DNA of 64,000 bases from positions 819,783 to 883,782 of the forward strand of contig NZ_JACOFU010000002.1 of the NCBI RefSeq assembly GCF_014284275.1. Direction: 5' to 3'. The DNA comes from Affinundibacterium amnicola. GTDB taxonomy: Bacteria > Pseudomonadota > Gammaproteobacteria > Burkholderiales > Burkholderiaceae_D. This document shows, one piece after another, positions 28,483 to 60,549 of this stretch; position 1 is the first letter of the stretch; every line of letters begins with the position of its first letter. Made by a program: the position numbers and the translations under genes. The notes under the pieces were generated by a model. That model had not been told where the DNA came from and did no database searches. It was given only the letters and a program-made list of their open reading frames with translations.

Positions 28483-29697
28483 ATGAGCATCGCAACACAA
28501 ATCAAAACTTGGGCAGGCAATAATCTTCCTTTTATCTTTGCCATCCTACGCACCGTCAAACCAAACCTGGTACTCAAAGAATTTGCCTTGATCACGCGTT
28601 TTAGTGATGTACAGGAAGCACTATCGCGTCCGAATGCGCTGGGTGTAACTTACGCAGAAAAGATGGGCAAGATTACAGCAGGAAGTAATTTTTTTCTGGG
28701 CATGGACGACACACCAAGCTATACCCGTGATGTATCCAATATGCGCTTGGTAGTACGGCGCGCAGATGTTAGTCAAATCATCACCCCCATGGTTGAGCAA
28801 TTTGCGCAACAGCTGGTCAATAGGGCCACAGGTAAAATAGAAATGGTGAGTCAACTCAGTAGCATCGTACCCTGCCAATTCAGCGCAGCATATTTAGGAA
28901 TTGCGGGTCCTAGCCAGAAAGAATTATTTGACTGGACCAGCAGCATGTTTGCCTATCTGTTTTACCCAAATAATCCGCCAGAGGTCGATCAAGCCGCGCT
29001 CGCCAATAGTGTAAAAACTTGCGCCTATCTCGATCAACTCATTGCACAACGAAAACAAGCAGCGGAATCTGGCACAAACATCGATGACATCATTGGCCGG
29101 TGCTTACAACTACAGGCAAGTGGTACACCGGGGATGAGTGATCTGGAAATCCGTAACAATCTCATTGGTATCATCATCGGTTTGATGCCAACAACCTCCA
29201 AATGTGCTGTTTTAGTGATTGATTATTTACTCGACCATCCAGCATTACTCGCCCAAGCACAAGCCGCGGCACTACAAGATGACAATGAAAAACTCCGGAA
29301 ATTTATGCTTGAAGCTTTGCGTTTTAATAGCTTTGGTGCAGGGATCTTTCGGATTGCGAATGAAGATTACGTGATTGCTAGCGGTAGCATGCGCTCCAAA
29401 AAAATCAAGAAGGGCACGAAGGTTTTAGTCGCTTTGCAATCTGCCATGCTAGACGGCCGCGAACTCGATGATCCAAAATCTTTCCGCCTTGATCGTCCTG
29501 ATTATCAATACATGCACTTCGGCTACGGCATGCATACCTGCTTCGGACAATACATCAATATGGTGCAAATTCCGATGATCGTGAAATCCTTACTTCGTTG
29601 TAAAAACTTACGCCGAGCCGCAGGTGAAGAAGGCAAAGTACGCTACCAAAACAGTTTTCCTGTCAGCCTGCATCTGGAATTTGATCCAGCATCTTGA
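28483..29697 (+). CDS. Cytochrome P450
   Basis: A 404-residue P450. The heme-binding loop is FGYGMHTCFGQ with Cys353 as the axial ligand, and the K-helix ExxR is Glu277-Arg280 (LEALRF). The I-helix region (GIIIGLMPTTSK) lacks the usual acid/alcohol pair and instead has PTTS. That may mean unusual oxygen activation or a peroxide shunt. It has no membrane anchor. The start follows a weak GGGAG. It is followed by the patatin gene 105 bp downstream, possibly co-transcribed. The substrate is unknown; redox partners are not encoded nearby. Confidence 0.88.
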   Translation: MSIATQIKTWAGNNLPFIFAILRTVKPNLVLKEFALITRFSDVQEALSRPNALGVTYAEKMGKITAGSNFFLGMDDTPSYTRDVSNMRLVVRRADVSQIITPMVEQFAQQLVNRATGKIEMVSQLSSIVPCQFSAAYLGIAGPSQKELFDWTSSMFAYLFYPNNPPEVDQAALANSVKTCAYLDQLIAQRKQAAESGTNIDDIIGRCLQLQASGTPGMSDLEIRNNLIGIIIGLMPTTSKCAVLVIDYLLDHPALLAQAQAAALQDDNEKLRKFMLEALRFNSFGAGIFRIANEDYVIASGSMRSKKIKKGTKVLVALQSAMLDGRELDDPKSFRLDRPDYQYMHFGYGMHTCFGQYINMVQIPMIVKSLLRCKNLRRAAGEEGKVRYQNSFPVSLHLEFDPAS

Positions 29698-29728
29698 ACA
29701 TTTTCTTGATGCTTTTTTTGCATCAGTA

Positions 29729-29762
29729 ATACATCAATAGATACATCAATCGATACCTCAAT
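29729..29762. repeat. Short tandem repeat, about three 12-bp units
   Basis: ATACATCAATAG, ATACATCAATCG and ATACCTCAAT follow each other in the P450-patatin intergenic gap. The degree of identity is high but the copy number is low; no function can be assigned. Confidence 0.55.
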
Positions 29763-29802
29763 TGTTAAATGACGAAGTAAAGCAAATTGAAAGTGCCAGA
29801 TC

Positions 29803-32130
29803 ATGCATAACAAGCACCAGCTCATGCAAGAGGTTTTTCAAGCAGAACTTGAAGAGATCAATAAACGCAAATTCTTAGATAGTGATGGCAATCTGCTCAA
29901 CCGTCACGAACAAGAACTCGTCGATTTTGATCGCATCTTACTTCCTGCAGAAAAACGCTCGTCAATTCTCAACGAAGTGCTTGATGAAATCAACAACACA
30001 CAAGCGGCATGGAACGCGGACAACACTGTGGCACATCGTGGCTTGGTCGGTTTAGCGTTCTCTGGTGGTGGCATACGTTCAGCGACGGTGAACCTTGGCA
30101 TCTTGCAAGGTTTGCGTAAAATTGGCTTACTCAGGGCGGTCGATTATTTATCCACAGTATCTGGTGGCGGTTACATCGGCTCTTGTTACAGCGCGGTACA
30201 AGCGCTGGAGGCTAAGCAATTAGATGCGAATAATACATTCAAGCCCGATGGCATCAACCAAACACAAGCACACGACGCACTGTTCGGACATCAGCCTGGC
30301 GTGCCAGAAAATGCGGTCTTCCGGCACTTACGGAACAATGCCAATTACATGGCACCTGGCGGCATAATCGATGTCCTGCGCGTGCCTAGCGTGTTCTTAC
30401 GCGGCATGGTGATTAATTTTTTAATCGTCTTCCCCTTACTACTCATATTGGCGGCAATCAGTGTGTTGTTGATGTCTACAACATGGGACGTGCGCCAACA
30501 ACTTACATCGTTGTTAAGTCAAATTCATTTACCAAGCACCGAGAAATTTGCAATCACGCTATCCATACTCTATGCAACGATAGCAATCTATCTTGTATCT
30601 CCTCTGGCAAATATGACGTTGCAAGCAAAGCCGGCAACATCAAAACCTGGACTTCAACCCAACGCCAATAGCGTCAACGATCTCAACAATATGGGCTGGA
30701 ATAATCGAAACAAAGCAACCCGTTTACTGGGCTGGTGTATTGCGGCAATTTTTATCAGTGCGGCCATTGAATTACAGCCCATTGCAATTGCATTGTATGG
30801 AAGCGAAGTGGATCGTCGATTGAGTTTTCAATCGCTGGTACTATTAGGTAGTTTTTCTGCATTCGGCCTGAGCTTCTTAGCTGCTAAGCTCTTACCCAAA
30901 ATAGCCAGTCTGGCATCGCGCATGACGATCTACATCTTAGGTCTGATCGGCTTTGCTGTCTTCTGGTTGTTCTATCTGCATTTATGCAATGACTTACTAC
31001 GTGCAAGCCAATTGCAGCAGAGCGGTTTTATGTGGATTAGTCCACTCGGCTTTATCAGCATCGCCTTCATTTTGTCGCTGATTAATCATTTTACCGGCAA
31101 CATTAACTTTACCAGTTTTAGTTGTTTTTATCGTGATCGTCTAAGTAAAGCATATATTTTTGGTTTAAATCGAGACGGCAAAATTCAACAGGCTGACGAT
31201 CTTAAGCTATCTGAACTAGATTCGACATTTGCCCCCTACCATTTGCTCAATTGCACCTTAAATTTGAGTCGCACCAGCCAAGCCTATTGCGATGATAGAC
31301 GAGGTGATTTTTTCTTCTTCAGCAAACGTTTTATTGGTAGCGTCAGCACAACTTATTGCACCACCGAAGAATTAGAAGCGCAAAATCCAGAACTCAATCT
31401 GGCGACCGCCATGGCGATTTCAGCCGCTGCGGTCGCACCCAATCTCGGCAAGAGTACGATCAAGCCATTAGTCTTTATTTTAGGCATGCTCAATATTCGC
31501 TACGATTATTGGCTAGCAAACCCAGCTTGGATCAACAACAAAAGAACAATTAATAGCCGTCCCGGCTCCAGTTATTTTTTACGCGAACTCGCCAGCAATC
31601 TTAATGCTGAAACCGCCTACATTAATTTAACCGATGGCGGCCATATCGAAAATCTCGGTATGTATGAATTGATACGACGTGAATGCCGATTAATTATTGC
31701 GGGTGATAGTGAAGAAGATTTAGGCCTTACTTTTTCTAGTCTGGCAGATGTGATTCGATTAGTACAAATTGACTTTGGTGTCATTATTGTGATGGATGGC
31801 CTAGATGCGATTCGTAACGGCAAACAGCATTATGCGATTGGGACTATTTATTACTGTAATGAGAAAGTCGGCAAATTAATTTATCTGAAGACTTCTTTAA
31901 TCGGCGACTTTAGTCTGCGTGATAGTTTGGCTCCTGATGCCTATCTATCCTCACGCTTACGCGATGACGACTTGGGCTTTGATCATAATGCCTATATCGC
32001 ACATTACAAAACACAAGATCCAAGCTTCCCGCATCAATCGTCGGCGAATCAATTTTATGATGAAACACAATTCGAATGCTATCGCTCATTAGGATTTCAA
32101 ATTGCGACCAATTCGCTAGGACGTCGCTGA
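29803..32130 (+). CDS. Membrane-bound patatin-like phospholipase
   Basis: A 775-residue protein with a split patatin domain. The oxyanion loop FSGGGIRSA (about 86-94) and nucleophile Ser120 in STVSGGGYIGS lie in the N-terminal half. The catalytic Asp611 in LTDGGHIENLG lies in the C-terminal half. Between them is a large insert with several transmembrane helices (about 205-230, 245-265, 305-325, 340-360, 375-400, 410-430). The nucleophile elbow is SGGG rather than GxSxG with a bulky residue, as is common in patatins. It likely hydrolyses acyl esters at the inner membrane. It follows the P450 gene and precedes the MNIO block by 385 bp. Confidence 0.82.
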   Translation: MHNKHQLMQEVFQAELEEINKRKFLDSDGNLLNRHEQELVDFDRILLPAEKRSSILNEVLDEINNTQAAWNADNTVAHRGLVGLAFSGGGIRSATVNLGILQGLRKIGLLRAVDYLSTVSGGGYIGSCYSAVQALEAKQLDANNTFKPDGINQTQAHDALFGHQPGVPENAVFRHLRNNANYMAPGGIIDVLRVPSVFLRGMVINFLIVFPLLLILAAISVLLMSTTWDVRQQLTSLLSQIHLPSTEKFAITLSILYATIAIYLVSPLANMTLQAKPATSKPGLQPNANSVNDLNNMGWNNRNKATRLLGWCIAAIFISAAIELQPIAIALYGSEVDRRLSFQSLVLLGSFSAFGLSFLAAKLLPKIASLASRMTIYILGLIGFAVFWLFYLHLCNDLLRASQLQQSGFMWISPLGFISIAFILSLINHFTGNINFTSFSCFYRDRLSKAYIFGLNRDGKIQQADDLKLSELDSTFAPYHLLNCTLNLSRTSQAYCDDRRGDFFFFSKRFIGSVSTTYCTTEELEAQNPELNLATAMAISAAAVAPNLGKSTIKPLVFILGMLNIRYDYWLANPAWINNKRTINSRPGSSYFLRELASNLNAETAYINLTDGGHIENLGMYELIRRECRLIIAGDSEEDLGLTFSSLADVIRLVQIDFGVIIVMDGLDAIRNGKQHYAIGTIYYCNEKVGKLIYLKTSLIGDFSLRDSLAPDAYLSSRLRDDDLGFDHNAYIAHYKTQDPSFPHQSSANQFYDETQFECYRSLGFQIATNSLGRR

Positions 32131-32323: not shown

Positions 32324-32515
32324 AATGCAAATAAAAACCTGCTTTTTTTGAGCTTCGCCAGCCAGCAATAGCCACAAATAGCCACAATTTTATTTGGCAC
32401 AAAAAATGCTAAAGCATCTATACGAGCAGATATCGCTTCTCAACTAACAACACAATCAACCAGCGATTCTTATCGTTTTGTTTTGATAGTTCTAAGAAAA
32501 TTGGGGGAAGTTCAA

Positions 32516-33859
32516 ATGCCAAATCAAAGTATTGTGGTGCAGGCAAATCAAACTTGGTCAGATACAGGAATACTCATCACTGCAAACAGCGCAGTCACGA
32601 TCAGTTTTCAAACTGGTGCGTGGACTGCAGATCCGCAAACAAATCAACACCAACTATACGGCCCTGCTGGCAACGCACAAATTATTATTCCGCCAACGCA
32701 AGCACGCTATCCTTTAGTGGGTGCGCCTATGGGCGCTCTCGTTGGGCGAATCGGTGACAATCCGGTATTCTTAATCGGTGCCGGGCCAACTGAATTACCC
32801 ACTGGTCAAAGCGGGAATTTAGCGCTATGCATTAACGATGATATCCACGCGGCTTATGGTTTAGGGCTGGCAGATAATCTGGGAGCGATTAGTGTCTTCA
32901 TTTATAACAGCAACACGCTGCCAGATTTATCAACGGCACTGGTTCATGAACCAGCACAAACGTCACCAGCTGCACCCACAACGACTTTGGGACCACTTGA
33001 ATATTTCATCGGGACTTGGACTAATAAGCTCACGGACACCGATGGTCTGCCCTACTCCTACAATGTCATGCCCTTACCGCAGGTCGATCCCAGCTCGCCG
33101 ACTGGCTACATCTTAAAAAACTTTGCTTATTACGAAGAACTTACTTTCAGCGCGATACATGGTGGCGCGCCCAATCGAGGTGGATTAGGCACACAAAACT
33201 GCAACGTTTTGCTTTATGAGCAGCGGGTGTATTTTGCCGAAGGGCCAAACAAGAACGCCTTGGTACACGCGGAAAACGGATCGCTGTTATTCATCAATGA
33301 TCAGCCACAAATACTCGGCCCCTATGGCAATGGCGATCAAGCTGGCATTGGTAATCGAACTATTAGCAACAGTGTCCCACCGACGCAGCAATTTAATATT
33401 ATCAAACAAGTTTCTGTACCACACGGGAATTCAATCTTGGCTGCGGGCACGTATCAAAAACAGGCAGGTGCGCCAATTATTCCAGCGCTTTCCACGTTAC
33501 CCGAAGGCGTGGTGACAACACAGTATTCACAGATGGATCCCGTTGCGAATCCTAATCCAAGTTATACACTCAATCCCAATCAAGCTTTAGCAGATGCATT
33601 ACTCACAGCACCTGTCACAGCGTTTTTCACGCTCCAAGTCAGTAGCAAAAACGGCGGTGGCGCGGTCACCAATATCGGTTTCGAACAACAACATGCGAAT
33701 GTCGAAATGTATTCCTGTACTTACTGGTTAGAAGCATTAAACAATGCCGCAGAATTCACCCAGCTCCAATATTCACAAACCATACTAATGCGCTTGCCAA
33801 TAGGTGATGGTTTTGTTGATTTTCCACATGTTACAAGCAATACCTTAACTAAGACCTAG
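32516..33859 (+). CDS. Protein with a LecA-like lectin domain and lipocalin-like domain
   Basis: Start at ATG 32516, preceded by GGGGGAAG; 447 residues, no signal peptide. Residues 1-140 resemble the PA-IL (LecA) galactose-binding lectin: VVQANQTWSDTGILITA, LYGPAG, MGALVGRIGDNP and AISVFIYNS. This is followed by a linker rich in Ala/Pro/Thr. The second part starts LGPLEYFIGTWTN, as in lipocalin-like heme- or fatty-acid-binding proteins, and runs to about 440. Both assignments rest on recalled motifs. The protein stands first in the block with the ferritin-like and MNIO genes, 85 bp before the next start, so it may deliver or recognise a ligand for them. Confidence 0.6.
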   Translation: MPNQSIVVQANQTWSDTGILITANSAVTISFQTGAWTADPQTNQHQLYGPAGNAQIIIPPTQARYPLVGAPMGALVGRIGDNPVFLIGAGPTELPTGQSGNLALCINDDIHAAYGLGLADNLGAISVFIYNSNTLPDLSTALVHEPAQTSPAAPTTTLGPLEYFIGTWTNKLTDTDGLPYSYNVMPLPQVDPSSPTGYILKNFAYYEELTFSAIHGGAPNRGGLGTQNCNVLLYEQRVYFAEGPNKNALVHAENGSLLFINDQPQILGPYGNGDQAGIGNRTISNSVPPTQQFNIIKQVSVPHGNSILAAGTYQKQAGAPIIPALSTLPEGVVTTQYSQMDPVANPNPSYTLNPNQALADALLTAPVTAFFTLQVSSKNGGGAVTNIGFEQQHANVEMYSCTYWLEALNNAAEFTQLQYSQTILMRLPIGDGFVDFPHVTSNTLTKT

Positions 33860-33944
33860 GGCATGTTGACCTAGTCAAAACCACATTAGCTTCCACAAAG
33901 TACCTCCACACTTCACCGCTATATTTATGCAGAAAGGTTCTACG

Positions 33945-35624
33945 ATGTCTTCTAAGCCTACCCACAATGCGCAACAGTTTCCTGCAGATCGTTCAGCGCT
34001 GCATCAGTTGTTGCAACTTGCCGTTGAGGTCGAATTGTTCACCATCCCGCTATACATGTCCTCGCTTTACTCAATACGAGGTATGTATCCAAGTTCGTCT
34101 ACCAGCCAAAATCTGTGGCCGGGAATAAAGCCAAACCCGAATGTTAGCAGTCCAAATCAGTATGCCTATAATGCCATCTTTAGCGTCTATATACAGGAAA
34201 TGCTGCATCTGCAATTGGCCAGCAATTTATGTACAGCCGTTGGCTTCACACCAAAGTTTCCCGCACTTGATTACACCTCATTTGGCAGCTCAATTCCTTG
34301 CATCGGCGATTTAAAAACAGTCAAGGGATATGAGGATGTACAAGTAAAACTTGGCCCACTAGATCGCAATCAAATCAAACTATTTTTAGCGATTGAGATG
34401 CCAGACTGGGAAGCGAACAACGACGGACATCTGCGCCCTGCCACACCATTTCCCACAGACGCTGGTGGCAAGCCGGTGATGCCGGCAGCATTTGGTTCTA
34501 TCGGACACCTGTATCACTGTATAGAACAGTATTTTGACATCATGTATGACGACAAAATGAGCTTATGGGAAAAACTATTCACACCCAATTCTGTGCAAGT
34601 TGACATGTTCAATTTCAAATCAGCTAGTGCGCAACATCCCACCAGAGAGTATCCGCTTTTTCCAGTCACGATCCCCAGCGATGCAACTGCAAAACAAGCA
34701 CGCAAAACCGCACAAGAAATGATCACCGCCATTCTTGATCAAGGCGAAGGAGCGCAAGCTAACTCCGAGGTGCCAAATCGCTTCGTTCCAGCTGAAAAAA
34801 GAATGGAGAAAGACGAAACTAAGAGTAATGCCATCGTTCGTGCACAATGGGATAAACAAAGTCATTATGATCGTTTTGCGTTAGTTGCATCTTGGTTAGA
34901 TATGATAGAAACTTGGCCAAACTGGCTAGCGACGCGCCCTGCAAATGCAGCGTGGACCGCGGACGATCTACTGCTTGAACCGCAAGAAGCAACACCAGCG
35001 GAACTCGCTGCGGCACAAGCCCGCGCGGATGCAATGAACAATCCAGCTACCGCCGCAGAAATAGATAATGCACTAAGTCATAGTTATTGCAATTTATTAT
35101 CTGCGATCGAATCAAGTTGGAGTAACGCGAAAATCAGCTTTCCCGCTGCTGCTATGCAAGCCTTATCGACTCGCGTTGCGACCGTGTGGGCCACTGGTGG
35201 TGCGCCTAGCTTTACGCCAGTGACACCGAATGTCATCGGTAGTAACGCACATGCTTGCCAAGGTCTGGATCCCAACTCACCGGGAGCCAATAGTTGTGCC
35301 AATGCGGTAATTCATACTTGCGCAGGCTCAAATAGTTGCGCTAATCAGGGTGGATGTGGTTATCCACCCGCTGAAAGTTTACCGGATTTCAATTCAGCCG
35401 CAGGCAACGGAGGATGCGGTGCACCGATTCCAGATGCACAAATTTTCCATGGCACCAATCCACCAGTGTCGGTCGATGGAAATCAAATCAGTGCCACCAA
35501 TGGACAAAGTGTTTACGACACGGCTTGGCAAGTTTTTCAGGCTCGATTTGCAAGTAATCCCGCCGTCAAAAATGCCCAAAAACCCGTACCCAATAATTTA
35601 CGTATCGTACTCCCACCAAGCTAA
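33945..35624 (+). CDS. VioB/RebD-type ferritin-like protein with cysteine-rich C-terminal tail
   Basis: The start at 33945 has AAAGG 7 bp upstream; the ATG at 33927 would add six residues. The first ~290 of 559 residues form a ferritin-like domain of the iminophenyl-pyruvate dimer synthase (VioB) type. Carboxylate/histidine ligands are visible in VEVELFTIPLY, YIQEMLHLQLA and LYHCIEQYFD. Residues 438-491 hold six cysteines: Cys438, 451, 459, 465, 471 and 491, in CQGL, NSCAN, HTCAGSNSCANQGGCGYP and GGCG. Such Cys-Gly/Asn-Ser patterns are typical of peptides modified by DUF692 (MNIO) enzymes. The MNIO gene begins 34 bp downstream, so this protein is the likely substrate. That link is inference. 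Confidence 0.7.
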   Translation: MSSKPTHNAQQFPADRSALHQLLQLAVEVELFTIPLYMSSLYSIRGMYPSSSTSQNLWPGIKPNPNVSSPNQYAYNAIFSVYIQEMLHLQLASNLCTAVGFTPKFPALDYTSFGSSIPCIGDLKTVKGYEDVQVKLGPLDRNQIKLFLAIEMPDWEANNDGHLRPATPFPTDAGGKPVMPAAFGSIGHLYHCIEQYFDIMYDDKMSLWEKLFTPNSVQVDMFNFKSASAQHPTREYPLFPVTIPSDATAKQARKTAQEMITAILDQGEGAQANSEVPNRFVPAEKRMEKDETKSNAIVRAQWDKQSHYDRFALVASWLDMIETWPNWLATRPANAAWTADDLLLEPQEATPAELAAAQARADAMNNPATAAEIDNALSHSYCNLLSAIESSWSNAKISFPAAAMQALSTRVATVWATGGAPSFTPVTPNVIGSNAHACQGLDPNSPGANSCANAVIHTCAGSNSCANQGGCGYPPAESLPDFNSAAGNGGCGAPIPDAQIFHGTNPPVSVDGNQISATNGQSVYDTAWQVFQARFASNPAVKNAQKPVPNNLRIVLPPS

Positions 35625-35658
35625 GCGCTGATCATATTTGCGTCATATTCTGATTACT

Positions 35659-36618
35659 ATGTACGATAAGAAATCATCGGAAAAGCTGAACTCCTACGCC
35701 ACTCCCATGCCCAATCTTGGGTATGGGATAGGATTACGCCATTGTCATTTTCAAGATGTACTGCAATATCAAGCAGGGCAAAAAATTAATGGGCACTATG
35801 CGCCCGATTGGTTAGAAGTGATCACAGAAAACCTAATGGATGATCATGGTCACACACGTCAGATGCTGCGCCGTATTGCAGCGATTTATCCATTGGTTTT
35901 TCACGGCGTTTCACTCTCTATTGGTAGCAGTGAGCCACTCAACTTTGCCTACCTAGATAAACTTAAAAATTTATGTGAAGAGTTTTCACCGGTTTGGATA
36001 TCCGATCATTTATGTTGGACTGGTATCGGCAGCATCAATAGCCATGATCTATTACCAATGCCTTTACATCAAACCAGTTTAGATTACCTGATCTCAAGGG
36101 TTCATCAGGTGCAAGACTATTTAGGAAGACGTTTGATTTTAGAGAACCCGAGTAGTTATCTACATTACTTGGAATCCGATATCTCCGAATGGAATTATCT
36201 GAATGCGCTGTGCGACGCAACTGGCGCGGGGATACTCTTAGATATCAATAATGTCTATGTTTCTGCATTCAATTTAGGTTTCGACCCACGTGACTACATT
36301 CAAAATATCACACCAAAACACATCGTACAAATCCATCTCGCTGGCCCTCGTCATTGCGGCACCCACATCATTGATACACATGATAGTCCAGTGCCCGATA
36401 TCGTCTGGCAGCTATACACTGAACTGATTCAAAGGACTGGTTTAGTCAGCACTTTATTGGAATGGGATGCGAACATTCCTGATTTTGCAACGCTGATGAA
36501 TGAGCTGGCAAAAGCGCGACAACAATTATCATCGACAACATCAACCGAATCTGCTGAACAGTCATTCAGCAAGGAGTTCAACACCGATCCATTGCTGGCA
36601 GCGAATCTATGCGTCTGA
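35659..36618 (+). CDS. DUF692 multinuclear non-heme iron enzyme (MNIO, BufB-like)
   Basis: About 319 residues from the ATG at 35659 (a TTG at 35638 is possible). The TIM-barrel motifs of the DUF692 family follow in order: YGIGLRHCH, FHGVSLSIGSSEPLN, WISDHLCW, LENPSSYL, LLDINNVYVSAFNLGFDP, IHLAGP, DTHDSPVPD and LEWDANIP. The histidine, aspartate and glutamate residues in these motifs bind two or three iron ions. Family members oxidise cysteine in RiPP precursors, for example to oxazolone/thioamide, thiooxazole or excised carbon products. The gene overlaps the DUF2063 partner gene by 10 bp. Confidence 0.93.
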   Translation: MYDKKSSEKLNSYATPMPNLGYGIGLRHCHFQDVLQYQAGQKINGHYAPDWLEVITENLMDDHGHTRQMLRRIAAIYPLVFHGVSLSIGSSEPLNFAYLDKLKNLCEEFSPVWISDHLCWTGIGSINSHDLLPMPLHQTSLDYLISRVHQVQDYLGRRLILENPSSYLHYLESDISEWNYLNALCDATGAGILLDINNVYVSAFNLGFDPRDYIQNITPKHIVQIHLAGPRHCGTHIIDTHDSPVPDIVWQLYTELIQRTGLVSTLLEWDANIPDFATLMNELAKARQQLSSTTSTESAEQSFSKEFNTDPLLAANLCV

Positions 36619-37505
36619 GTATCAAACACTTGCAGCAACAAATGCTAGCGCATATCACTGGCACACCTGAGGCTAAGTTTATGCAAGCTGAACTTATGCA
36701 TGCTGATTCAGACAAAAAGACATCTGAAAATATTCAAACGCATCAGTTATTACGCCCCAATAGCTATTTAAATCCCACGCAAGCGCTGGCAATTTATCAA
36801 CTCGCATTTACCGCACGTCTACTCGATTGTCTGCGAGCCGATTTTCCCATCTTGCGACAACATTTAGGTGATCCATTATTCCATCACTTTGCAACAGAAT
36901 ATCTCAAGGCATTTCCACCAAATTCCTATAGCTTATTTGATCTAGGCGAACACTTTGCGGATTACCTCCAACAAACTTGCCCCGATCTCAGTTCGCTCGA
37001 TGAAGCGGATCAGATGATTTATTTACTACCTATAGAAATCGCAAGAGCAGAACGCATGCGGGTATCAGCTTTACGTGCCAAAGGCACAGAGGGATTGACG
37101 CTGCTTGAACCTGATTATCATCATCTTCCACAATTAAAAAGAATCTCTCTGACATCGCCTGATGTCTGTAGCGTGATGACAGCGCAAGCAAGCTTGCTTC
37201 ACTGGTTCAATCAAAATAGCATTGAACAAAACAGCGAGGACTGTCGTCGCATTTACCTTGCGATAAGCCGCTGCAATTATCGTGTTACCACCGATCCGAT
37301 TGAGCAATGGCAGTATGATTTTTTGCAAGTCCTGAAAGAAGCCCATCCATCATCGATTTTCCTCGAAGACCTGATCGCACAGTTAGCAAACAGATGTCGA
37401 TACGATGTCGATATGATTTATGCGCGTCTGGCACTTTGGCTACCAGTAGCAATCAGTCGTGCTTATATCCTTGTCGAGTTGAATAACTGCGAACATACTG
37501 ATTAG
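36609..37505 (+). CDS. DUF2063 partner protein (BufC-like) of the MNIO enzyme
   Basis: A 298-residue protein. The N-terminal half (about 45-140) is the DUF2063 domain, once called putative DNA-binding: QALAIYQLAFTARLLDCLRADFPILRQHLGD, then FHHFATEYLKAFPPNSYSLFDLGEHFADYL. In known MNIO systems this protein binds the precursor and brings it to the DUF692 enzyme. The 10-bp overlap with the MNIO gene suggests translational coupling and 1:1 production. The C-terminal part (about 200-298) is the usual winged-helix-like region. It is followed 35 bp later by an XpaC-like gene. Confidence 0.9.
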   Translation: MRLSIKHLQQQMLAHITGTPEAKFMQAELMHADSDKKTSENIQTHQLLRPNSYLNPTQALAIYQLAFTARLLDCLRADFPILRQHLGDPLFHHFATEYLKAFPPNSYSLFDLGEHFADYLQQTCPDLSSLDEADQMIYLLPIEIARAERMRVSALRAKGTEGLTLLEPDYHHLPQLKRISLTSPDVCSVMTAQASLLHWFNQNSIEQNSEDCRRIYLAISRCNYRVTTDPIEQWQYDFLQVLKEAHPSSIFLEDLIAQLANRCRYDVDMIYARLALWLPVAISRAYILVELNNCEHTD

Positions 37506-50770: not shown

Positions 50771-51769
50771 TCAACTCACCGTCTCACCAGCAATCAAAAC
50801 TGGTTGCCATAAGACCTGTAACTCCGACGGAGGCGTACCATTCTGTAGCGCCAACAGCATCTCTACCATTTTCTTACCAGCAAGATCAGGATTAGGCTGC
50901 TCTATCGTGGTGACATTGTAGCCAGCCAAAGAATCTTCCATCTTACCCCACACGATGATGGACATTTGCTTGCCAATTGCGATACCTGCATCTAACAGAG
51001 CACGCATCGCGCCGACGCCTGCCATGTGGTTATCGACGATCACTGCACTTGGCGGCGCGGAGCTCGCCAATAACTGTTGCATGGCAGCGTAACCACCACG
51101 TCGATCATTCGAATTATCTTTGAGATAATCGGGATTTGGCTGTAAGCCAGCATCGCGCATCACAGATTGAAAACTATCAAAACGCTGACGTGCAAAATTC
51201 ATCTCTAACGGCGCACTCATTAAAGCAATACGCTGATGTCCGTAGGCGAGTAAATGTTCAACGGCAACTCGCATGCCGCTTTCATTATCGTAATCGAACC
51301 AGGCATGTGGTTCATTAACGCGGGTACGACCATGTGCAACAAAAGGCAAACCATGTTTGGCCAGATAGGCGACGCGTTCGTCATACAATTTGGTGCGACC
51401 AACAATCAAACCATCGACGCGACGCTCTTTCACCATATGTTTATAAGCGCGTAACTCATTTTCCGGTGACACAGGCGCCATGATTAAATCCATTTGGCGA
51501 CCTTCCAATGCTTCCACCATGCCACCGACAATTTGCATGAACATAGGATCAGCCAAATCGTTGGCGATCAGCGCATGAATGATACCGATCACATTGGTAC
51601 GCCCAGATGCCAAGCTACGCGCCATTGGATTGGGACGATAGCCAAATTGCTCAGCGGCTTCTAAAACACGTTGACGAGTTCGTGCGCTCACTTCTGGATA
51701 GCCGTTTAAAGCACGGCTAACGGTCGTTTCTGAGATGCCAAGATTTTGTGCCAGACTTTTGAGATTCAT
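50771..51769 (-). CDS. LacI-family transcriptional regulator of the maltodextrin genes
   Basis: A 332-residue regulator with an N-terminal helix-turn-helix (MNLKSLAQNLGISETTVSRA, 1-20), a hinge region RPNPMARSLASG, and a periplasmic-binding-protein-like sensor (about 60-332; IVDNHMAGVGAMRAL). It is the last gene of the row of envelope maltodextrin genes. The operators at 17611-17656 and 63688-63732 have the palindromic CG centre expected for this family and are its probable targets. The inducer is likely maltose or a related sugar. There is no experimental basis in the sequence. Confidence 0.88.
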   Translation of the reverse strand: MNLKSLAQNLGISETTVSRALNGYPEVSARTRQRVLEAAEQFGYRPNPMARSLASGRTNVIGIIHALIANDLADPMFMQIVGGMVEALEGRQMDLIMAPVSPENELRAYKHMVKERRVDGLIVGRTKLYDERVAYLAKHGLPFVAHGRTRVNEPHAWFDYDNESGMRVAVEHLLAYGHQRIALMSAPLEMNFARQRFDSFQSVMRDAGLQPNPDYLKDNSNDRRGGYAAMQQLLASSAPPSAVIVDNHMAGVGAMRALLDAGIAIGKQMSIIVWGKMEDSLAGYNVTTIEQPNPDLAGKKMVEMLLALQNGTPPSELQVLWQPVLIAGETVS

Positions 51770-51901
51770 GGTGCCAATTCAGTATTGATGACTACAGGCG
51801 ACTTGCAAAAAAACGAAGTGTAATAGGATGCAGCATACAGGACAAGAGCTTTTTCCCTCGCCTTTGCAGATCATCAACTTCACCAAATCAGAGCATCTTA
51901 A

Positions 51902-54352
51902 TCACCAATTCACACGAATTAAATTCGCTGATTTTGCACTTCCGCGGACTTGTGCTGTGAGCAGCTTACGACTAGAGTCCCAGTCAAATTTCACTGTTTT
52001 TCCATCCAAAGTCACTTGCTGCGGTACCTGTTCCACATTATGCACATACAAAGCGATCTGCTTGTTTAAGGCTTTCATCTTGCGTCCATTCTGCTGACGA
52101 AGTTGAATTTGTAGTGAAGATTGACCGTTTGCTTGTGCTTGAAACTTGCTAGAAAAATGATGAATACGGAAGCGTTCTTGTTGATATGCTTGCGCTGTCA
52201 GACCATCATCCTCGTACATGGTTCCCTGACTCTGCTCAGTTGCGGCGTCGTGATAGTAATGCAGTGCTAAATCTTTCTCGTTATAAAACTGTGTGCTTTG
52301 CATAGGCATAGCCATAGGAATAAATGCCCCAGCGCGTACAAATACGGGAATATGCTCTTCACGCACTTTCACGGTATGCGTCTTACCACCGGCATAAACC
52401 TGTCCAGTGTAAAAATCTATCCACGTGCCAGAAGGGAATACCACCTCAGCCTGTTGTTGCCCCGCTTGCATAATCGGTTGCACTAAGAAATCATTGCCCC
52501 ACAAATAGGATGTCGAATGCGCGCGCAGTTTTGCATTCTCCGGCTCAGCAAAAAACAGCGGGCGCATCAAAGGCAAACCCTGCTGCTGATTTTCAAATGC
52601 CAGCGTGTAATTGTAAGGCAGCAAGCGGTAACGTAATTCGATAGCAGCCTTGGCTAACTGTTTGGCCTTTGCAGCACGGAAGATAGGTTCAGATGCGACC
52701 TCTTCTTGTGCATGTGGGCGGAAGATAGGTTGAAACACACCGTACTGCAACCAACGTGCATACAGTTCGTCATCCAGATTTGCACCGGCAAATCCACCTA
52801 AATCCGAATGCATATACGCTAAACCTTGCATCCCCATTTGCAGTGCAATCTCAGGCTGCGAGCGAAGACCACCCCAAGTGCGATTCACATCGCCAGACCA
52901 GGGAATCAAACCAAAGCGTTGCGAGCCAGAATAACCTGCACGCATCAAAATGAATGGCCGTTGTGTTGGGAAATCTTTCTGATAGCCTTGTGCGACGAGC
53001 TTCGCCCATTCATGTCCATAGATATTGTGCACTTGATCTGCACCTAGTTGACCATTCGCATGACGGAGCTCACTAGGATGCACTTCTGGTTCGCCAAGAT
53101 CGCCCCACACGCCAGCAACACCTTGCTGCGCCAAGTCTTTATAGATATTCCAAAACCAGTCACGAGCCTTCGGTTGGAACAGATCAATCAATCCCGTATT
53201 ACCAAAATAGAAGTCATAGGTGAATGGCTTACCAGCCTGATCGGTTGCCAGAATGTTTTCCTGTACTGCTTCTTGCCAACGATTCGAGGTCGTCAATATA
53301 AAAGGCTCAGTGATGAGTACGGTCTTCACACCTTGCTGATTAAAATCCGCGATCATGCCTTTCGGATTCTTAAAATTATCTTGATCAAAGGCGAGATTGC
53401 CCATCGTGCCTTTGACTTCTTTACCAAACCAATACAGATCAAAAATAATCGCATCGACAGGAATTTGTTCTGCACGATATTTTGCGATCACCTGACCTGC
53501 CTCAGCCTCTGAATGATAACCAAAGCGGCTGGCGAAATTACCAAACGCCCAGCGCGGTGGCAGCGGCTGGCGCCCTGTTAGCTGGGTGTAATTGGCGACC
53601 ACACTCGCCCAAGACTTGCCAGCGATAATTTGATAAGTCTTACGCCCACCTATGGTTTCGTAACTGAGTGAATTATCCTTGGTGCTGTCAAGATCGAGCG
53701 TGCCGATTGCGGCATTATCAAAATGGATGCCATACATCTTGGATGAATACACCAGTGGAATCGCAAAGTTCATTTGACTCGATTGTTCTTCGTAGCCGTA
53801 ATGCGCCTTATTGTAGAGCGGCAAGCGATGACCACGACGATTCATTCCTAGTGCACGCGCACCTGCGCCGTACAGAGCTTCCTGCGCATCTAAATTAAAG
53901 CTGATGCGCTCTTTATTTTTCTCGACAGTATCAATTTTCTCGTAACCGAGTTTTTCAGAGGTCAGCAACTTACCCTGATAAAAATAGCTGATTTGAAACG
54001 GTGCTTTTTGTATGCGCACCGAGATCCCGGAACTCACATAATCGATCTGTTGTGCAGTCTCCTGAAACTGCATTTTGACTTTTTGCGGCTTCCCCACCAC
54101 CGCATGCGATTGCTGATCAAATGGCGTAAGCACTTCACCTTTAGGAATAAAGCGCGTTTCAAAAACTTCCGTTGAGTACGGTGTAATCTGATATTGCCCA
54201 TCATTGGTCGTGATGCTTATATGCGATGGGCTATGCTTTACTTGCAATACCTGACGTTGCGGATTTTGCGCGTAAGCAGATACGCTGAAAGTGAGCGTCA
54301 AAGCCGCGCTAATTAAATTGGCAGATCGAGAATAGCGAGGAAATTGTTTCAT
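51902..54352 (-). CDS. Exported GH31 alpha-glucosidase
   Basis: An 816-residue protein with a signal peptide (cleavage near AYAQ). The GH31 barrel contains the nucleophile Asp418 in GVWGDLGEPEVH and the acid/base Asp488 in WSGDVNRTW, followed by HSDLGGFAG. N-terminal and C-terminal beta domains (DUF5110-like) are present. It would remove alpha-linked glucose from dextrins in the periplasm. Its start overlaps the stop of the amylase gene by 4 bp, indicating translational coupling. Confidence 0.9.
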   Translation of the reverse strand: MKQFPRYSRSANLISAALTLTFSVSAYAQNPQRQVLQVKHSPSHISITTNDGQYQITPYSTEVFETRFIPKGEVLTPFDQQSHAVVGKPQKVKMQFQETAQQIDYVSSGISVRIQKAPFQISYFYQGKLLTSEKLGYEKIDTVEKNKERISFNLDAQEALYGAGARALGMNRRGHRLPLYNKAHYGYEEQSSQMNFAIPLVYSSKMYGIHFDNAAIGTLDLDSTKDNSLSYETIGGRKTYQIIAGKSWASVVANYTQLTGRQPLPPRWAFGNFASRFGYHSEAEAGQVIAKYRAEQIPVDAIIFDLYWFGKEVKGTMGNLAFDQDNFKNPKGMIADFNQQGVKTVLITEPFILTTSNRWQEAVQENILATDQAGKPFTYDFYFGNTGLIDLFQPKARDWFWNIYKDLAQQGVAGVWGDLGEPEVHPSELRHANGQLGADQVHNIYGHEWAKLVAQGYQKDFPTQRPFILMRAGYSGSQRFGLIPWSGDVNRTWGGLRSQPEIALQMGMQGLAYMHSDLGGFAGANLDDELYARWLQYGVFQPIFRPHAQEEVASEPIFRAAKAKQLAKAAIELRYRLLPYNYTLAFENQQQGLPLMRPLFFAEPENAKLRAHSTSYLWGNDFLVQPIMQAGQQQAEVVFPSGTWIDFYTGQVYAGGKTHTVKVREEHIPVFVRAGAFIPMAMPMQSTQFYNEKDLALHYYHDAATEQSQGTMYEDDGLTAQAYQQERFRIHHFSSKFQAQANGQSSLQIQLRQQNGRKMKALNKQIALYVHNVEQVPQQVTLDGKTVKFDWDSSRKLLTAQVRGSAKSANLIRVNW

Positions 54353-56073
54353 GGTTTACCCAAAAGAATAATCGCGTGTTTACCTGGAAGTTCGACTTTG
54401 CCGGATTGAACAATCACGCTTTGACCAGAGTAATAATCCTTTACACGCTCACCATCCTGAAATACTGGCGCAACAGTAATCGTATGCGTTTTTGCCAAAG
54501 GTAAATCAAGCGCAACGACGACATGATCACGCACACCATCTTTTTGATAGCTGCGTTTGAAGATGTAAGGAGAGACTGAAAGTTGTTGATGTACACCCAT
54601 GCCGACAGATACATGTGCGGCACGGAATTGGCCTAGCTTTTGCCAATGTGTGAGCAAATCGCGATAAGTTGGCGAGTCTTTATATGTGTGCGGTACTTGC
54701 TTGGTTTGTAAAGCGAGTGGTCTATCTTTTTGCAATACAGACCAGTCCATCATAGCTCGCAACTTGGCATCACCTTGCGCTTCGGCGATATTTAACAAAC
54801 GCGCGATTTCATCACCATAATAAATCTGTACTGAGCCAGGTGTTAACATCAACTTAGTCGCCGATTCAAATGGGCGCTGGCGTGCTGGATCAAACGGGCT
54901 ACCATCATCATGCGAACTGATGTAATTCAATACCGAATAGCCTTTGAGATCGTTCTGCAAGTAATTGGCATAGCGGCTGAACAAAGTTTCGTATTCTAAG
55001 TGTGCATCCGATCTAAAGCTGAAATTAATCATGCTATCAAAACCGTTCGCATAATAATTGACGCGGCTACCGCCATCCATTCTGAATTGCAAACCATCAC
55101 TGATAGGATAGTTGTAAGCTTCTGCGGTCATAAAGAAGGGATCATCACTGAGCTTCTTCTTCGGATTGGCTTTTTTCCATTCTTCAAAAGCCGCACTCGC
55201 TTCTTGCTTCAATTCTTTCCAAACCGATGCTTCCACATGCTTAACCGTATCAACACGAAAACCATCAATGCCATATTTGCGTATCCAATCAGTATGCCAT
55301 TTCATCAAATAGTAACGAGGTGCGCGTGGGAAACCCGTGCGCGCAAAATACACATCCAACTCTTTTACCTCGCGTTCATAGCGCCCTTCTTGCTTCCACT
55401 TTTGCGCTAATTGCGGTGGTAGATCGACTGGCTTATCGCTCTCGGTCAAGATGTCGGGCAGATTTTTTACCAAAGTACATTTGATCGCACCATCAGCCGT
55501 TTTGTAATCGCAAGTCGGTTCAGCGCGCACCCAGTCGGCAGGCCAGACAGTATCAGTCGCAGTGACTGGTCCGATGTGATTCATCACCACATCCAACAGA
55601 ATTCGTATGCCATGCTGATGTGCGACCTCGACTAGTTTTTTAAAATCTTTTTCGCTGCCAAGATTCGCATCAACTTTGGTAAAGTCTTTGGTCCAATACC
55701 CATGAAAACCATACGACTTGCCAGTGCCTTCATCGGTTCCCTCATGGATTTGCTCCACCGGTGGCGTAATCCATAGAGCATTCACACCCAAGCGACTAAA
55801 GTAGCCGTCCTGAATTTTGGCAATCACCCCTTGCAAATCGCCGCCCATAAAACCACGCAAGGGAGCAGCATCAGCTAGGCGACCATACGCCAGATCATTT
55901 TTCTTATCGGCATTATGAAAACGATCCGTCAGTAAGAAATAAACGGTCGCGTTTTCCCATAAAAATGGCTTCTTATTCGCTTTACCAATCTCCGCAGCAT
56001 TGGTGTTTTGAGTCAAGCCCAAACCCATTAGCGACAAACAGATCAAAGCCGTATTTAAGGTCTTACTTTGCAT
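54349..56073 (-). CDS. Exported GH13 alpha-amylase
   Basis: A 574-residue protein with a signal peptide (cleavage after TNAAE). The GH13 catalytic set is complete: Asp275 in GFRVDTVKH, Glu318 in MTAEAYN, and Asp389 in SSHDDGSP; LDVVMNHIG precedes them. Cysteines in EPTCDYKTADGAIKC may form a disulfide. It would cut maltodextrins or starch in the periplasm or outside. It lies 118 bp after the MFS gene, a gap with a tandem repeat. Confidence 0.9.
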   Translation of the reverse strand: MQSKTLNTALICLSLMGLGLTQNTNAAEIGKANKKPFLWENATVYFLLTDRFHNADKKNDLAYGRLADAAPLRGFMGGDLQGVIAKIQDGYFSRLGVNALWITPPVEQIHEGTDEGTGKSYGFHGYWTKDFTKVDANLGSEKDFKKLVEVAHQHGIRILLDVVMNHIGPVTATDTVWPADWVRAEPTCDYKTADGAIKCTLVKNLPDILTESDKPVDLPPQLAQKWKQEGRYEREVKELDVYFARTGFPRAPRYYLMKWHTDWIRKYGIDGFRVDTVKHVEASVWKELKQEASAAFEEWKKANPKKKLSDDPFFMTAEAYNYPISDGLQFRMDGGSRVNYYANGFDSMINFSFRSDAHLEYETLFSRYANYLQNDLKGYSVLNYISSHDDGSPFDPARQRPFESATKLMLTPGSVQIYYGDEIARLLNIAEAQGDAKLRAMMDWSVLQKDRPLALQTKQVPHTYKDSPTYRDLLTHWQKLGQFRAAHVSVGMGVHQQLSVSPYIFKRSYQKDGVRDHVVVALDLPLAKTHTITVAPVFQDGERVKDYYSGQSVIVQSGKVELPGKHAIILLGKP

Positions 56074-56135
56074 GGGAAGACTTCCTATCTATCAATCAAT
56101 TAGTACTGTCGGTAGATTACAAACCAAGATTTGCA

Positions 56136-56178
56136 TTCACAATTTGGCTCACAATTTGGTTCACAATTTGGTTCACAA
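56136..56178. repeat. 12-bp tandem repeat before the amylase gene
   Basis: The unit TTCACAATTTGG is repeated 3.6 times with one changed base (CTCACAATTTGG). It occupies 43 of the 118 bp between the MFS transporter stop and the amylase start. Its length is a whole number of codons, but it is not translated in either gene. Confidence 0.85.
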
Positions 56179-56191
56179 GATCGTTTGCGAA

Positions 56192-57520
56192 CTATTTTGC
56201 AATCACTTTCTCAACATCGTCCTTTACAAACAAAGTCAAGACACCCGCCAATACCATGCAAGCGCCGCCTAACATCAACACCTTGACCGATTGATTGGCA
56301 AAGAAGTGCTTCAAAATTGCGCCCAACACCACACCTGCAACAATCTGCGGAATCACCACAAAAAAGTTAAACAAGCCTAAGTAATAACCCATTTTATTCG
56401 CAGGCAAAGCACCCGCCAGAATTGCATAGGGCATCGTCAAGATACTTGCCCAAGCAATACCAACACCCACCATAGGCAGTAGTAACATGTGTTTATTGGT
56501 AATCGCAAAAATGCTGATTAAACTAAAACCACCTATCACCAAACACATTAAATGAACAAACTTACGACTAGTCATTTTTGCTAACATCGGCAGTATGAAT
56601 GCCGCAATCGCAGAAACACCACCATACATCGCGAACATAATGCCTACCCAATTACCCGCGTCCTGATAGGCACTTGATTGCGCATCGCTTGATTGAAACA
56701 CGCCAGACGCAACTGAAGGTGTCGTATAAACCCACATCGCGAACATCGCGACCCAGGTAAAAAACTGAACGAGTGCAAGCTGTATCATGGTCTTAGGCAT
56801 TTTGAAGAAGCCACCCAAGATTTCTTTCACCGCATGCAGCATGCCCTTGTTCGCGGCACGCTCAGCCAAAAATGCATCCATATCGGAGGGAGCGTCTTCT
56901 TTACTTAACAAGACTGTCCATAACACTGCAAGAAAATATACGCTGCCACCAATATAGAAAGAGTAGCGAACAGTATCGGGAATCGCGCCGTTCACTGGAA
57001 CATTGCTCACACCTAGATAGTCGGTAAAAATGGTTGGCAGCAAAGAGGCGACAACACCGCCACAACCGATGAAAAAAGTTTGCATCGCAAAACCACCTGT
57101 TTGCTGACTCGCATCTAACTTATCACCGACGAATGCACGGAACGGTTCCATCGACACATTGATCGATGCATCCATCAGCCACAACACAAACACCGCCATC
57201 CAAAGCGCGCTGGAATTAGGCATCAAGAACATCGCAATGGAGGCCAACACAGAACCGATAAAGAAAAATGGACGACGGCGTCCCCAAGTCGGGTGCCAGG
57301 TGCGATCACTCAAATAGCCAATTACGGGCTGCACCAACAAACCGGTAATCGGAGCCGCTAACCACAGAATCGACAAACTATCGATATCGGCACCCAGCGT
57401 CGAGAAAATACGGCTGGTATTGGTATTTTGCAGCGCAAAGCCAAATTGAATACCGAAAAAGCCGAAGCTCATATGCCAGAGCTGCCAGAACGACAGTTTT
57501 GGTTTTGCTAGTTGATGCAT
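56192..57520 (-). CDS. MFS maltose/maltodextrin transporter (SLC45/MalY-like)
   Basis: A 442-residue protein with 12 transmembrane helices. The N-terminal FGFFGIQFGFALQNTNTSRIF and the loop GYLSDRTWHPTWGRRRPFFFIG are typical of the GPH/SLC45 sucrose-maltose type symporters. In Caulobacter and Xanthomonas a related carrier takes up maltose with protons in a cluster with a TonB receptor. The place between the antiporter and the amylase genes supports this role. Confidence 0.88.
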   Translation of the reverse strand: MHQLAKPKLSFWQLWHMSFGFFGIQFGFALQNTNTSRIFSTLGADIDSLSILWLAAPITGLLVQPVIGYLSDRTWHPTWGRRRPFFFIGSVLASIAMFLMPNSSALWMAVFVLWLMDASINVSMEPFRAFVGDKLDASQQTGGFAMQTFFIGCGGVVASLLPTIFTDYLGVSNVPVNGAIPDTVRYSFYIGGSVYFLAVLWTVLLSKEDAPSDMDAFLAERAANKGMLHAVKEILGGFFKMPKTMIQLALVQFFTWVAMFAMWVYTTPSVASGVFQSSDAQSSAYQDAGNWVGIMFAMYGGVSAIAAFILPMLAKMTSRKFVHLMCLVIGGFSLISIFAITNKHMLLLPMVGVGIAWASILTMPYAILAGALPANKMGYYLGLFNFFVVIPQIVAGVVLGAILKHFFANQSVKVLMLGGACMVLAGVLTLFVKDDVEKVIAK

Positions 57521-57599
57521 AAGTGTCCCCTCAAAAATTCGGTAGTTTATTTATGTTCAGTTATCTATTTTAAAAATCTGTAGCGTGTCAAAACTAGTG

Positions 57600-58802: not shown

Positions 58803-58823
58803 AGCGATTCCATTTCAAGGAGA

Positions 58824-60335: not shown

Positions 60336-60500
60336 CTTGAGCTCTCACGCAAAAAAGAATTGATGGAAAATCGCTTTTTTCAATTTCATAAGAACCTCAG
60401 TGTACTGCAGAGTATTCCGCGAAACGCATTGATAAAACACATTTTCATCAAGTCTTTTATTTGAGTCATGCTGATGATCAGATCAACAAAACTCAGGGGT

Positions 60501-60534
60501 AAAAAAAAGACCCCTGCCATGCCGCGCAGGGGTC
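60501..60534 (-). terminator. Terminator after the TonB receptor gene
   Basis: On the minus strand a 9-bp stem (GACCCCTGC / GCAGGGGTC) with an 8-nt loop is followed by T8 (A8 at 60501-60508). It is 15 bp past the receptor stop codon. It should separate high receptor expression from the halogenase and following genes. Confidence 0.9.
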
Positions 60535-60549
60535 CTTATTCAGTTCAAA

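Follow-up and report, generated by a model that had tools for sequence, protein, structure and literature searches.

Small metal-binding peptides are the known products of MNIO enzymes, and the locus described here raises the question of what such an enzyme and its DUF2063 partner modify when the gene directly upstream encodes a ferritin-like protein. In the window, the whole stretch of 64,000 nucleotides that was analysed, ORF and profile scans place PF12902, MNIO (PF05114) and DUF2063 genes in tandem at 33945-37505, with the following features:

33945..35624, + strand: 559-aa ferritin-like (PF12902) protein whose body, residues 14-424, resembles PDB 3hl1
35250..35429, + strand: Buf2-bufferin-like Cys segment, residues 436-495; predicted MNIO substrate
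35442..35621, + strand: C-terminal cap, residues 500-559, hairpin plus helix; candidate recognition element
35659..36618, + strand: MNIO (DUF692, BufB family), predicted cysteine oxidase
36609..37505, + strand: DUF2063 partner (BufC/HvfC type, PME-type 1), with a predicted C-terminal RRE-like domain

The ferritin-like ORF begins with the ATG at 33945, or else at 33927, and ends at 35624, and its product scores 104.2 bits against PF12902 (cut-off 22.3). The MNIO gene starts with the ATG at 35659, in a frame open from the TTG at 35638, and ends at 36618; the score of its product is 327.7 bits against PF05114 and 330.1 bits against the NCBIfam model NF050167 ‘MNIO_BufB’, above the cut-off of 310. 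The third protein reaches 62.2 bits against PF09836 (cut-off 27.2). The overlap of 10 bp between the DUF692 and DUF2063 genes that had been described in the initial annotation was confirmed by these scans (36609-36618), and the six tail cysteines attributed to the 559-residue protein are indeed located at positions 438, 451, 459, 465, 471 and 491. Since the gaps before, within and after the block measure just 85, 34 and 29 bp, a separate precursor is excluded from the block. The DoxX gene of bufferin clusters is likewise absent, as had been stated: the scanned neighbours of the window block are not DoxX, and a DoxX query against all ORFs of 22 loci carrying the same gene trio gave 0 matches.

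The ferritin-like body belongs to the PF12902 group by its score and its ferritin-like fold, and is closest to CC_0557 of Caulobacter (PDB 3hl1). The earlier designation ‘VioB-type’, after the iminophenyl-pyruvate dimer synthase VioB, thus applies to the PF12902 domain and to nothing beyond it. Frames of 1005-1228 aa in this group, which we take to be VioB-like by length only, were found in the sample without the Cys motif and without an adjacent MNIO. Conservation was evaluated in an alignment of the window protein with 64 of 120 fetched homologues (779 matches in all), in which E30, E85, H88, E151, E268 and H307 are invariant (65/65). In most of the 120 homologues, 110 in number, the ferritin helix-1 motif begins no later than residue 60 (median 35; later in 3, not found in 7), so near the N-terminus that a signal peptide ahead of it has no room; by this measure, no indication of a Sec signal peptide was obtained for the substrate.

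Conservation is high in the Cys segment, 60 of the 559 residues containing 13 of the 45 invariant columns. Cys 438, 459, 465, 471 and 491 are present in all 65 aligned sequences and Cys 451 in 59, the four remaining cysteines of the window protein not being invariant, and the pattern with x5, x5 spacing recurs in 120/120 fetched homologues. In the AlphaFold2 model the segment appears at low confidence and nearly without secondary structure, while the cap at 500-559 folds with good confidence; its sequence is conserved, with R553 invariant in 65/65. The proposal that the C-terminal tail serves as substrate is therefore narrowed: the segment at residues ~436-495 is supported in this role, and the folded cap follows it. 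Pfam and NCBIfam scans of the segment gave no match. By profile-profile comparison, however, the segment is Buf2-bufferin-like: hhalign against a profile of 11 Buf2 precursors, all of one bacterial family, returned a probability of 84.8 and a score of 31.4 over 30 columns, compared with 29.7 between Buf1 and Buf2 and at most 25.3 for 200 permutations in which the Cys columns were kept. Moreover, a search of every ORF in the 22 loci with the Buf2 HMM matched ferritin-like proteins only, 5 of the 22 at E <= 1, the window protein and 16 others being missed.

Linkage of the motif with an MNIO was present in every sampled case. Among 195 genomes of the same family, 36 contain 56 PF12902 ORFs; the Cys motif occurs in 18/18 of those with an MNIO within 2 kb and in 0/38 of the others, and both kinds co-occur in 13 of the 36 genomes. 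The carriers belong to 5 genera, one of which supplies 10 of the 18, so these counts are not independent. In a phylum sample of 398 genomes, with the window's own genome removed, the motif was observed in 2/2 proteins with a near MNIO versus 0/14 others. The conservation of the tail cysteines on which the first reading depended thus holds in all sampled proteins whose gene has an MNIO no more than 2 kb away. The order ferritin-like protein, MNIO, DUF2063, on one strand, was found in 22/22 loci, of which 20 had been chosen for a near MNIO, gene order and DUF2063 presence not being selection criteria, and two (L006 and L107, a Pseudoalteromonas plasmid) via the ferritin-like protein alone. L004 and L005, which nearly duplicate the window and L037, respectively, were not counted separately. 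The trio occurs in five genera within the family, in two further families of the phylum and on one Gammaproteobacteria plasmid, the single record examined among 80 matching plasmid records; viral contigs scanned with query P0095 gave 0 relatives. In 16 loci the ferritin-like frames measure 559-789 aa from stop to stop, and distances between ferritin bodies correlate with those between their MNIOs (r = 0.91; 0/2000 permutations as high). This test used ferritin-linked rows only, in a trimming that preceded the BLAST-based one of the MNIO tree. A single origin of the fusion was considered and rejected: the ferritin-domain tree requires 2 changes, and the carriers are not clearly united in a single clade. 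This tree is poorly resolved, 14 of its 32 rows being less than half filled, and of the 38 non-carriers it includes 16; the others had no match or fewer than 150 residues. Three Cys-rich PF12902 proteins (L081-L083; 11-12 tail cysteines, no adjacent MNIO) were also rejected as motif carriers, their tails being CDGSH-like by eye instead.

In the MNIO tree, the 16 ferritin-linked enzymes analysed group in a single branch (100/99) that falls on the Buf2 side, apart from the Buf1 MNIOs, with which the second MNIO of the host genome groups; that genome has a second, complete cluster, of Buf1 type (L002). Of the 22 loci with a ferritin-linked MNIO the tree comprised 16, six from genus g6 being omitted, along with 11 Buf2 and 9 Buf1 loci, with rows trimmed by BLAST; the 20 comparison loci were hand-picked and their precursors assigned by eye, and L123, with no assigned precursor, was left out. 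Among 21 Buf1-, Buf2- and ferritin-linked MNIOs, 43 columns are invariant (start residue excluded), including H89, H124, E169, D202, H233, D246, H248 and E275 in the numbering of the 326-aa ORF from TTG 35638. By its PF05114 and NF050167 scores the enzyme belongs to the BufB branch of the MNIO superfamily, and the His, Asp and Glu residues of the putative catalytic site are conserved in it. Regarding the partner, whose gene follows the MNIO in 22/22 trio loci, a PDB sequence search gave 0 matches and the NCBIfam HvfC model 27.1 bits, far under the cut-off of 142. Its predicted fold (pLDDT 80) matches NGO1945 and TglI, the best PDB matches being 3dee (E 2e-5) and the TglHI partner chain 8hi7_A/8hci_A, and the PF09836 score together with this model assigns it to PME-type 1, a DUF2063 domain plus a predicted RRE domain.

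A precursor hidden beside the block was sought among 306 small ORFs with at least four cysteines within 3 kb outside the 22 trios. Similar ones formed 43 groups of at least two, 40 confined to a single genus and three spanning two genera. One of the three, present in the window, L006, L037 and L038, lies antisense to a common heme-binding gene, as read from the letters, and each of the other two depends on one weak match (E 3e-4); all three were rejected. No plausible candidate recurs in the 22 loci, which agrees well with the initial annotation. A PDB sequence search with the heme-binding neighbour gave 0 matches. The 20 proteins encoded next to the trio, from 10 loci, are for the most part unlike each other (caspase/TPR, P450s, tRNA synthetase, Hsp70, AlkZ and tricorn protease among them, with band 7 in two loci), and reading a function from them was abandoned.

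The presence of a bufferin-like stretch beside two predicted modifying genes implies that a metal-binding group is likely built onto the enzyme rather than onto a small peptide for export. In the mechanism that we consider probable, the MNIO and its DUF2063 partner would oxidise cysteines of the built-in Buf2-like segment in the upstream-encoded ferritin-like protein, and the oxidised segment would then serve as a metal-binding module, likely remaining attached to the protein in the cytosol. The identity of the segment as the MNIO substrate is the firmest part and appears very likely. The product is rather likely a 5-thiooxazole derived from Cys, as made by related enzymes of BufB/HvfB type. 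The group may bind copper or iron and supply, tune or buffer the metal of the ferritin-like site, a possibility held with less conviction. Because no sign of a Sec leader was obtained, the partner would need a different recognition site on the protein, and the conserved cap is a candidate for it, albeit a doubtful one. Continued attachment of the segment is suggested by the presence of the cap and by a partial scan of the neighbours, in which no protease or exporter genes recurred. In another explanation, the ferritin-like oxidase is a second tailoring enzyme that acts on its own MNIO-modified segment, and the peptide is later cut out as a metallophore; borosins are enzyme-plus-core RiPP precursors of this kind, and for the present protein we consider such a fate unlikely.

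It is also improbable that the ferritin-like body acts as a scaffold or store, with the segment as a tethered cytosolic bufferin against copper and no catalytic role. The Buf2-like segment and the Buf2-side MNIO are consistent with this view, as is the improved growth conferred by bufferins under copper excess, according to PMC12452194; however, the six body residues are invariant as for a working metal site, DoxX is missing from the 22 loci, and no sigma-factor or NrsF gene was found among the 20 scanned neighbours. A still less probable explanation is that the Cys segment remains unmodified, as a zinc, iron-sulphur or disulphide element, and that the substrate of the MNIO pair is another, unrecognised one. 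PF12902 proteins with a different Cys-rich extension do exist, as in L081-L083, but these CDGSH-like proteins have no adjacent MNIO, and the complete linkage of motif and MNIO in the samples, the Buf2 similarity and the lack of a plausible recurring short Cys ORF all argue against it. Finally, a chance neighbourhood of an ordinary ferritin-like gene and an unrelated bufferin maturase pair without its precursor, for which the second, complete Buf1 cluster in the genome might speak, is hardly credible, being already contradicted by the conservation of the trio across families and on a plasmid and by the correlated distances.

Oxidation of a segment that stays on the protein, the preferred reading, carries further consequences. 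MNIO modification of proteins has been proposed before on few cases; here one whole MNIO branch is tied to one protein family, with no exception in the examined samples. This provides a compact three-gene system in which to ask if protein-bound metal sites are among the products of MNIOs, and by what means a DUF2063/RRE partner would locate a substrate without the signal-peptide leader of known bufferin-type systems. In a bolder and more tentative form, these proteins would be cytosolic ferritin-like enzymes with a permanent, MNIO-installed (thiooxazole-type) protein-derived cofactor beside a carboxylate di-metal site, and the dedicated MNIO branch would have evolved from the machinery of exported copper-buffer peptides and come to recognise a folded enzyme in place of the Sec leader. 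If true, this would represent a new kind of protein-derived cofactor and would account for part of the MNIO clusters without a visible small precursor.

Compared with known systems, the PF12902 protein CC_0557 (3hl1, 317 aa) stops where the Cys segment starts in the window protein. The Buf2 (BUF_6/12Cys) bufABC cassettes, the ‘Cys-Lys’ captophorins, share the substrate-MNIO-DUF2063 order and the BufB-type MNIO, their partner also has an RRE-like fold, predicted here, and the ferritin-like core CxG...C..HxCxGxNxCxxQGGC resembles their core CxGxNSCKG..CK..xNxCKGxNxCKGxG. They differ in that the present substrate is ferritin-like, shows no sign of a signal peptide, carries its segment ahead of a folded cap, has no DoxX gene nearby and, at 559 aa, is longer than Buf2 precursors of 51-367 aa (PMC12452194). 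In known PME-type 1 systems the Sec signal peptide is the leader, as described in PMC13419390 and PMC12452194, and the former reports that HvfBC modifies its precursor poorly once the signal peptide is absent. HvfABC oxazolin and fontiphorin, thiooxazole captophorins, similarly involve an MNIO and PME1 acting on cysteines, as predicted here, whereas their EGKCG-type repeats occur in short exported peptides (PMC13097082 and PMC13419390). Bufferin fusions are also known, namely MerC|Buf1, MerC|Buf2, Buf1|Cytochrom_C|FGE-sulfatase and Buf_EGKCG|EF-hand, the large Buf1 and Buf2 fusions being described as few instances (PMC12452194); the terms ‘ferritin’ and ‘VioB’ have 0 occurrences in the main text of that paper, and in the papers accessible the ferritin-like MNIO-linked family is not among the few fusions reported, nor do ‘FMP-type’ terms occur there. 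As here, a bufferin-type domain is joined in them to another metal-related protein, but the MerC fusions are membrane-bound with a periplasmic bufferin part, unlike a ferritin-like body without signal peptide and with its own MNIO branch. A comparable arrangement is seen in the TIGR04222 proteins (PMC12452194), which are long, lie beside MNIOs and have a C-proximal Cys segment proposed as substrate; these are membrane proteins, PME-type 2 where a partner was found and mostly from Actinomycetota, whereas the new element here is a predicted dedicated MNIO cassette of PME-type 1 for a cytosolic protein of ferritin-like fold.

It can be observed that the arrangement described in the initial annotation, three tandem genes including one for a Cys-rich ferritin-like protein, is present in the window, where the following features were located.

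28483-32130, + strand: cytochrome P450 and patatin-like protein, upstream of the trio
32483-33859, + strand: heme-binding FMP-type protein (NF040572, 244.4 bits against a cut-off of 150), directly upstream of the trio
33945-37505: the trio, comprising genes for a ferritin-like protein (PF12902, 559 aa, six Cys within residues 438-491), an MNIO (PF05114; NCBIfam "MNIO family bufferin maturase", 330.1 bits against a cut-off of 310) and a DUF2063 protein, the last overlapping the MNIO gene by 10 bp
50771-63384, - strand: consecutive genes for a LacI regulator, a GH31 protein, an alpha-amylase, an MFS protein, a member of the tryptophan halogenase family (PF04820, 655 bits) and a TonB receptor

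The host is close to Undibacterium: its ferritin-like protein shares 98% identity with that of an Oxalobacteraceae assembly, 87% with the U. baiyunense protein and 79% with the U. seohonense protein. Its genome contains one PF12902 gene and two MNIOs. Because the second MNIO (locus L002, G000:C12:468567-472358, outside the window, which spans G000:C12:819783-883782) is located in an ordinary Buf1 cluster, with a DUF2282-type precursor, MNIO, partner and DoxX-type genes named by eye, the trio MNIO is distinct from the standard bufferin enzyme of this genome. A homologue of the FMP-type protein lies near the trio in five of 22 trio loci, namely the window, L006, L037 and, in opposite orientation, L038 and L039; a PDB sequence search returned no relative of it. 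The order of the P450 and patatin-like genes is kept in L004 and L037, and two P450 genes are convergent to the trio in L103. The row at 50771-63384 looks like a sugar-uptake locus including a halogenase-family flavoprotein.

In the genomes sampled, the tail Cys are present wherever an MNIO adjoins. Within the host's GTDB family, 36 of 195 genomes contain PF12902, as 56 ORFs, and 33 of the 36 have an MNIO. Measured from the edge of the PF12902 domain match to the edge of the MNIO domain match, the Cys motif is present in 18/18 PF12902 ORFs lying no more than 2 kb from an MNIO versus 0/38 of the remainder, for which the Fisher p of 5e-15 is overstated, 10 of the 18 carriers (five genera overall) being from one genus. 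Since 13 of the 36 genomes hold PF12902 proteins both with and without the motif, the contrast is visible inside single genomes. In a phylum-wide sample of 398 genomes, PF12902 was found in 17, including the window's own, apart from which two have an adjacent MNIO, with the motif in 2/2, and 14 have neither (three of these being partial or weak matches). The same trio is found on a Pseudoalteromonas piscicida plasmid, chosen by the full-length match of its ferritin-like protein. The gene order ferritin-like, MNIO, DUF2063 on one strand is observed in 22/22 loci; 20 of these were pre-selected for a near MNIO, which leaves the gene order and the presence of DUF2063 as the informative elements. 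A search over 5.8 billion proteins, with 7995 candidates scored, gave 779 homologues at E <= 1e-5, of which 120 were fetched, from sources including Methylobacter, Undibacterium, Caulobacter, Pseudoduganella, Chromobacterium, Myxococcus and Polyangiales. Both the core C-x5-C-x5-C and the C-x3-GGC motif are present in 120/120, viewed as protein sequences alone. When 64 of them were aligned with the window protein (65 rows), Cys 438, 459, 465, 471 and 491 were found in 65/65, likewise E30, E85, H88, E151, E268 and H307, and Cys 451 in 59/65. In PF12902 proteins of L081, L082 and L083 (frames of 661-732 aa), the ferritin-like domain is instead extended C-terminally by a Cys-rich stretch of another kind, with CDGSH-like motifs (CRCGQSKNKPFCDQSH).

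No plausible short Cys-rich substrate gene accompanies the trio, in line with the initial annotation: the window block leaves no space for an additional gene, and no plausible candidate recurs across the 22 loci. The precursor scan took in small ORFs carrying four or more Cys, up to 3 kb away and outside the 22 trios; among the 306 such ORFs there are 43 groups of similar ORFs, 40 confined to one genus and three spanning two. As precursors these three were rejected: one reads antisense to a neighbour gene common to its loci, and the other two depend on weak single matches. When every ORF in the 22 loci was scanned, the Buf1 and Buf2 profiles matched nothing besides ferritin-like proteins, apart from one ORF at a Buf1 E of 0.16, taken as noise. 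The Buf2 profile matched those of L038 (8.6e-6), L039 (6e-4), L101 (0.004), L107 (0.017) and L037 (0.93); the window protein is absent from these matches. Of 21 comparison MNIO loci in the same family (L002 and 20 hand-chosen ones), 20 show a short precursor of Buf1 or Buf2 type immediately upstream, as assigned by eye. The reported lack of DoxX also holds, the DoxX query matching nothing in the 22 loci.

The segment (residues ~436-495) is unrecognised by Pfam and NCBIfam, and no NCBIfam model (June 2026) exceeds its cut-off for the window ferritin-like protein or its homologues P0005, P0071, P0095 and P0115. In profile-profile comparison with 11 Buf2 precursors, the segment gave a probability of 84.8 and a score of 31.4 over 30 columns, the accepted pair Buf1-Buf2 giving 79.1 and 29.7 as a benchmark. 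Because this score lies above those for Buf1 (probability 19.5, score 22.8), CDGSH-like tails (score 7.1) and 200 Buf2 column permutations in which Cys stayed in place (score at most 25.3), the segment is best read as a Buf2-bufferin-like domain. In the MNIO tree, 16 ferritin-linked MNIOs group together as a single branch (100/99), which falls on the Buf2 side (100/98); the eleven Buf2 MNIOs do not make a single branch, and nine Buf1 MNIOs make up the other side. Distances between ferritin-like bodies correlate with those between MNIOs (r 0.91, 16 loci; 0/2000 permutations as high). In the ferritin-domain tree the carriers are not seen as one clear clade. The bodies of L038, L039 and L101 are the most distant, and this trio variant also gives the strongest Buf2 hit (E 8.6e-6, in L038); it may have acquired its Buf2 segment in a second capture event. 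Linkage, the lack of a separate substrate and the profile comparison thus support the earlier proposal of an enzyme-borne Cys segment as predicted MNIO substrate, and sharpen it to a Buf2-like domain.

BufB/HvfB-type MNIOs with PME-type 1 partners are described as converting Cys to copper-binding 5-thiooxazoles (PMC13097082, PMC13419390), and by analogy the MNIO and DUF2063 partner would convert Cys of the ferritin-like protein likewise. In the oxazolin system the signal peptide is described as the leader, its removal strongly lowering modification (PMC13419390), and PME-type 1 partners are linked to signal-peptide substrates (PMC12452194). Unlike in these systems, the putative ferritin-like substrate shows no indication of a Sec signal peptide; for this reason, and because the DoxX query matched nothing in the 22 loci, the predicted modified product is expected to remain cytosolic, with the segment on the protein. 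The predicted modified segment might provide metal for the ferritin-like site, form another metal centre or buffer copper; a built-in metal module is the reading that we place first. LodA-type oxidases carry a protein-derived quinone, an interesting counterpart to a modified protein in the present context. Fungal PF12902 genes are reported to adjoin lodA/lodB-like genes (PMC4417212).

MNIOs have been proposed to modify proteins too, with a few bufferin fusions listed (PMC12452194), in a main text from which "ferritin" and "VioB" are absent. Searches of open-access PMC text brought up no recognisable description of the ferritin-like/MNIO/DUF2063 family, although an earlier listing in supplementary tables is possible. 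The trio is not classed as a bufferin because a signal peptide and a short precursor, both looked for, were not found; judged from sequence, it would nevertheless work like a Buf2 bufferin cassette.
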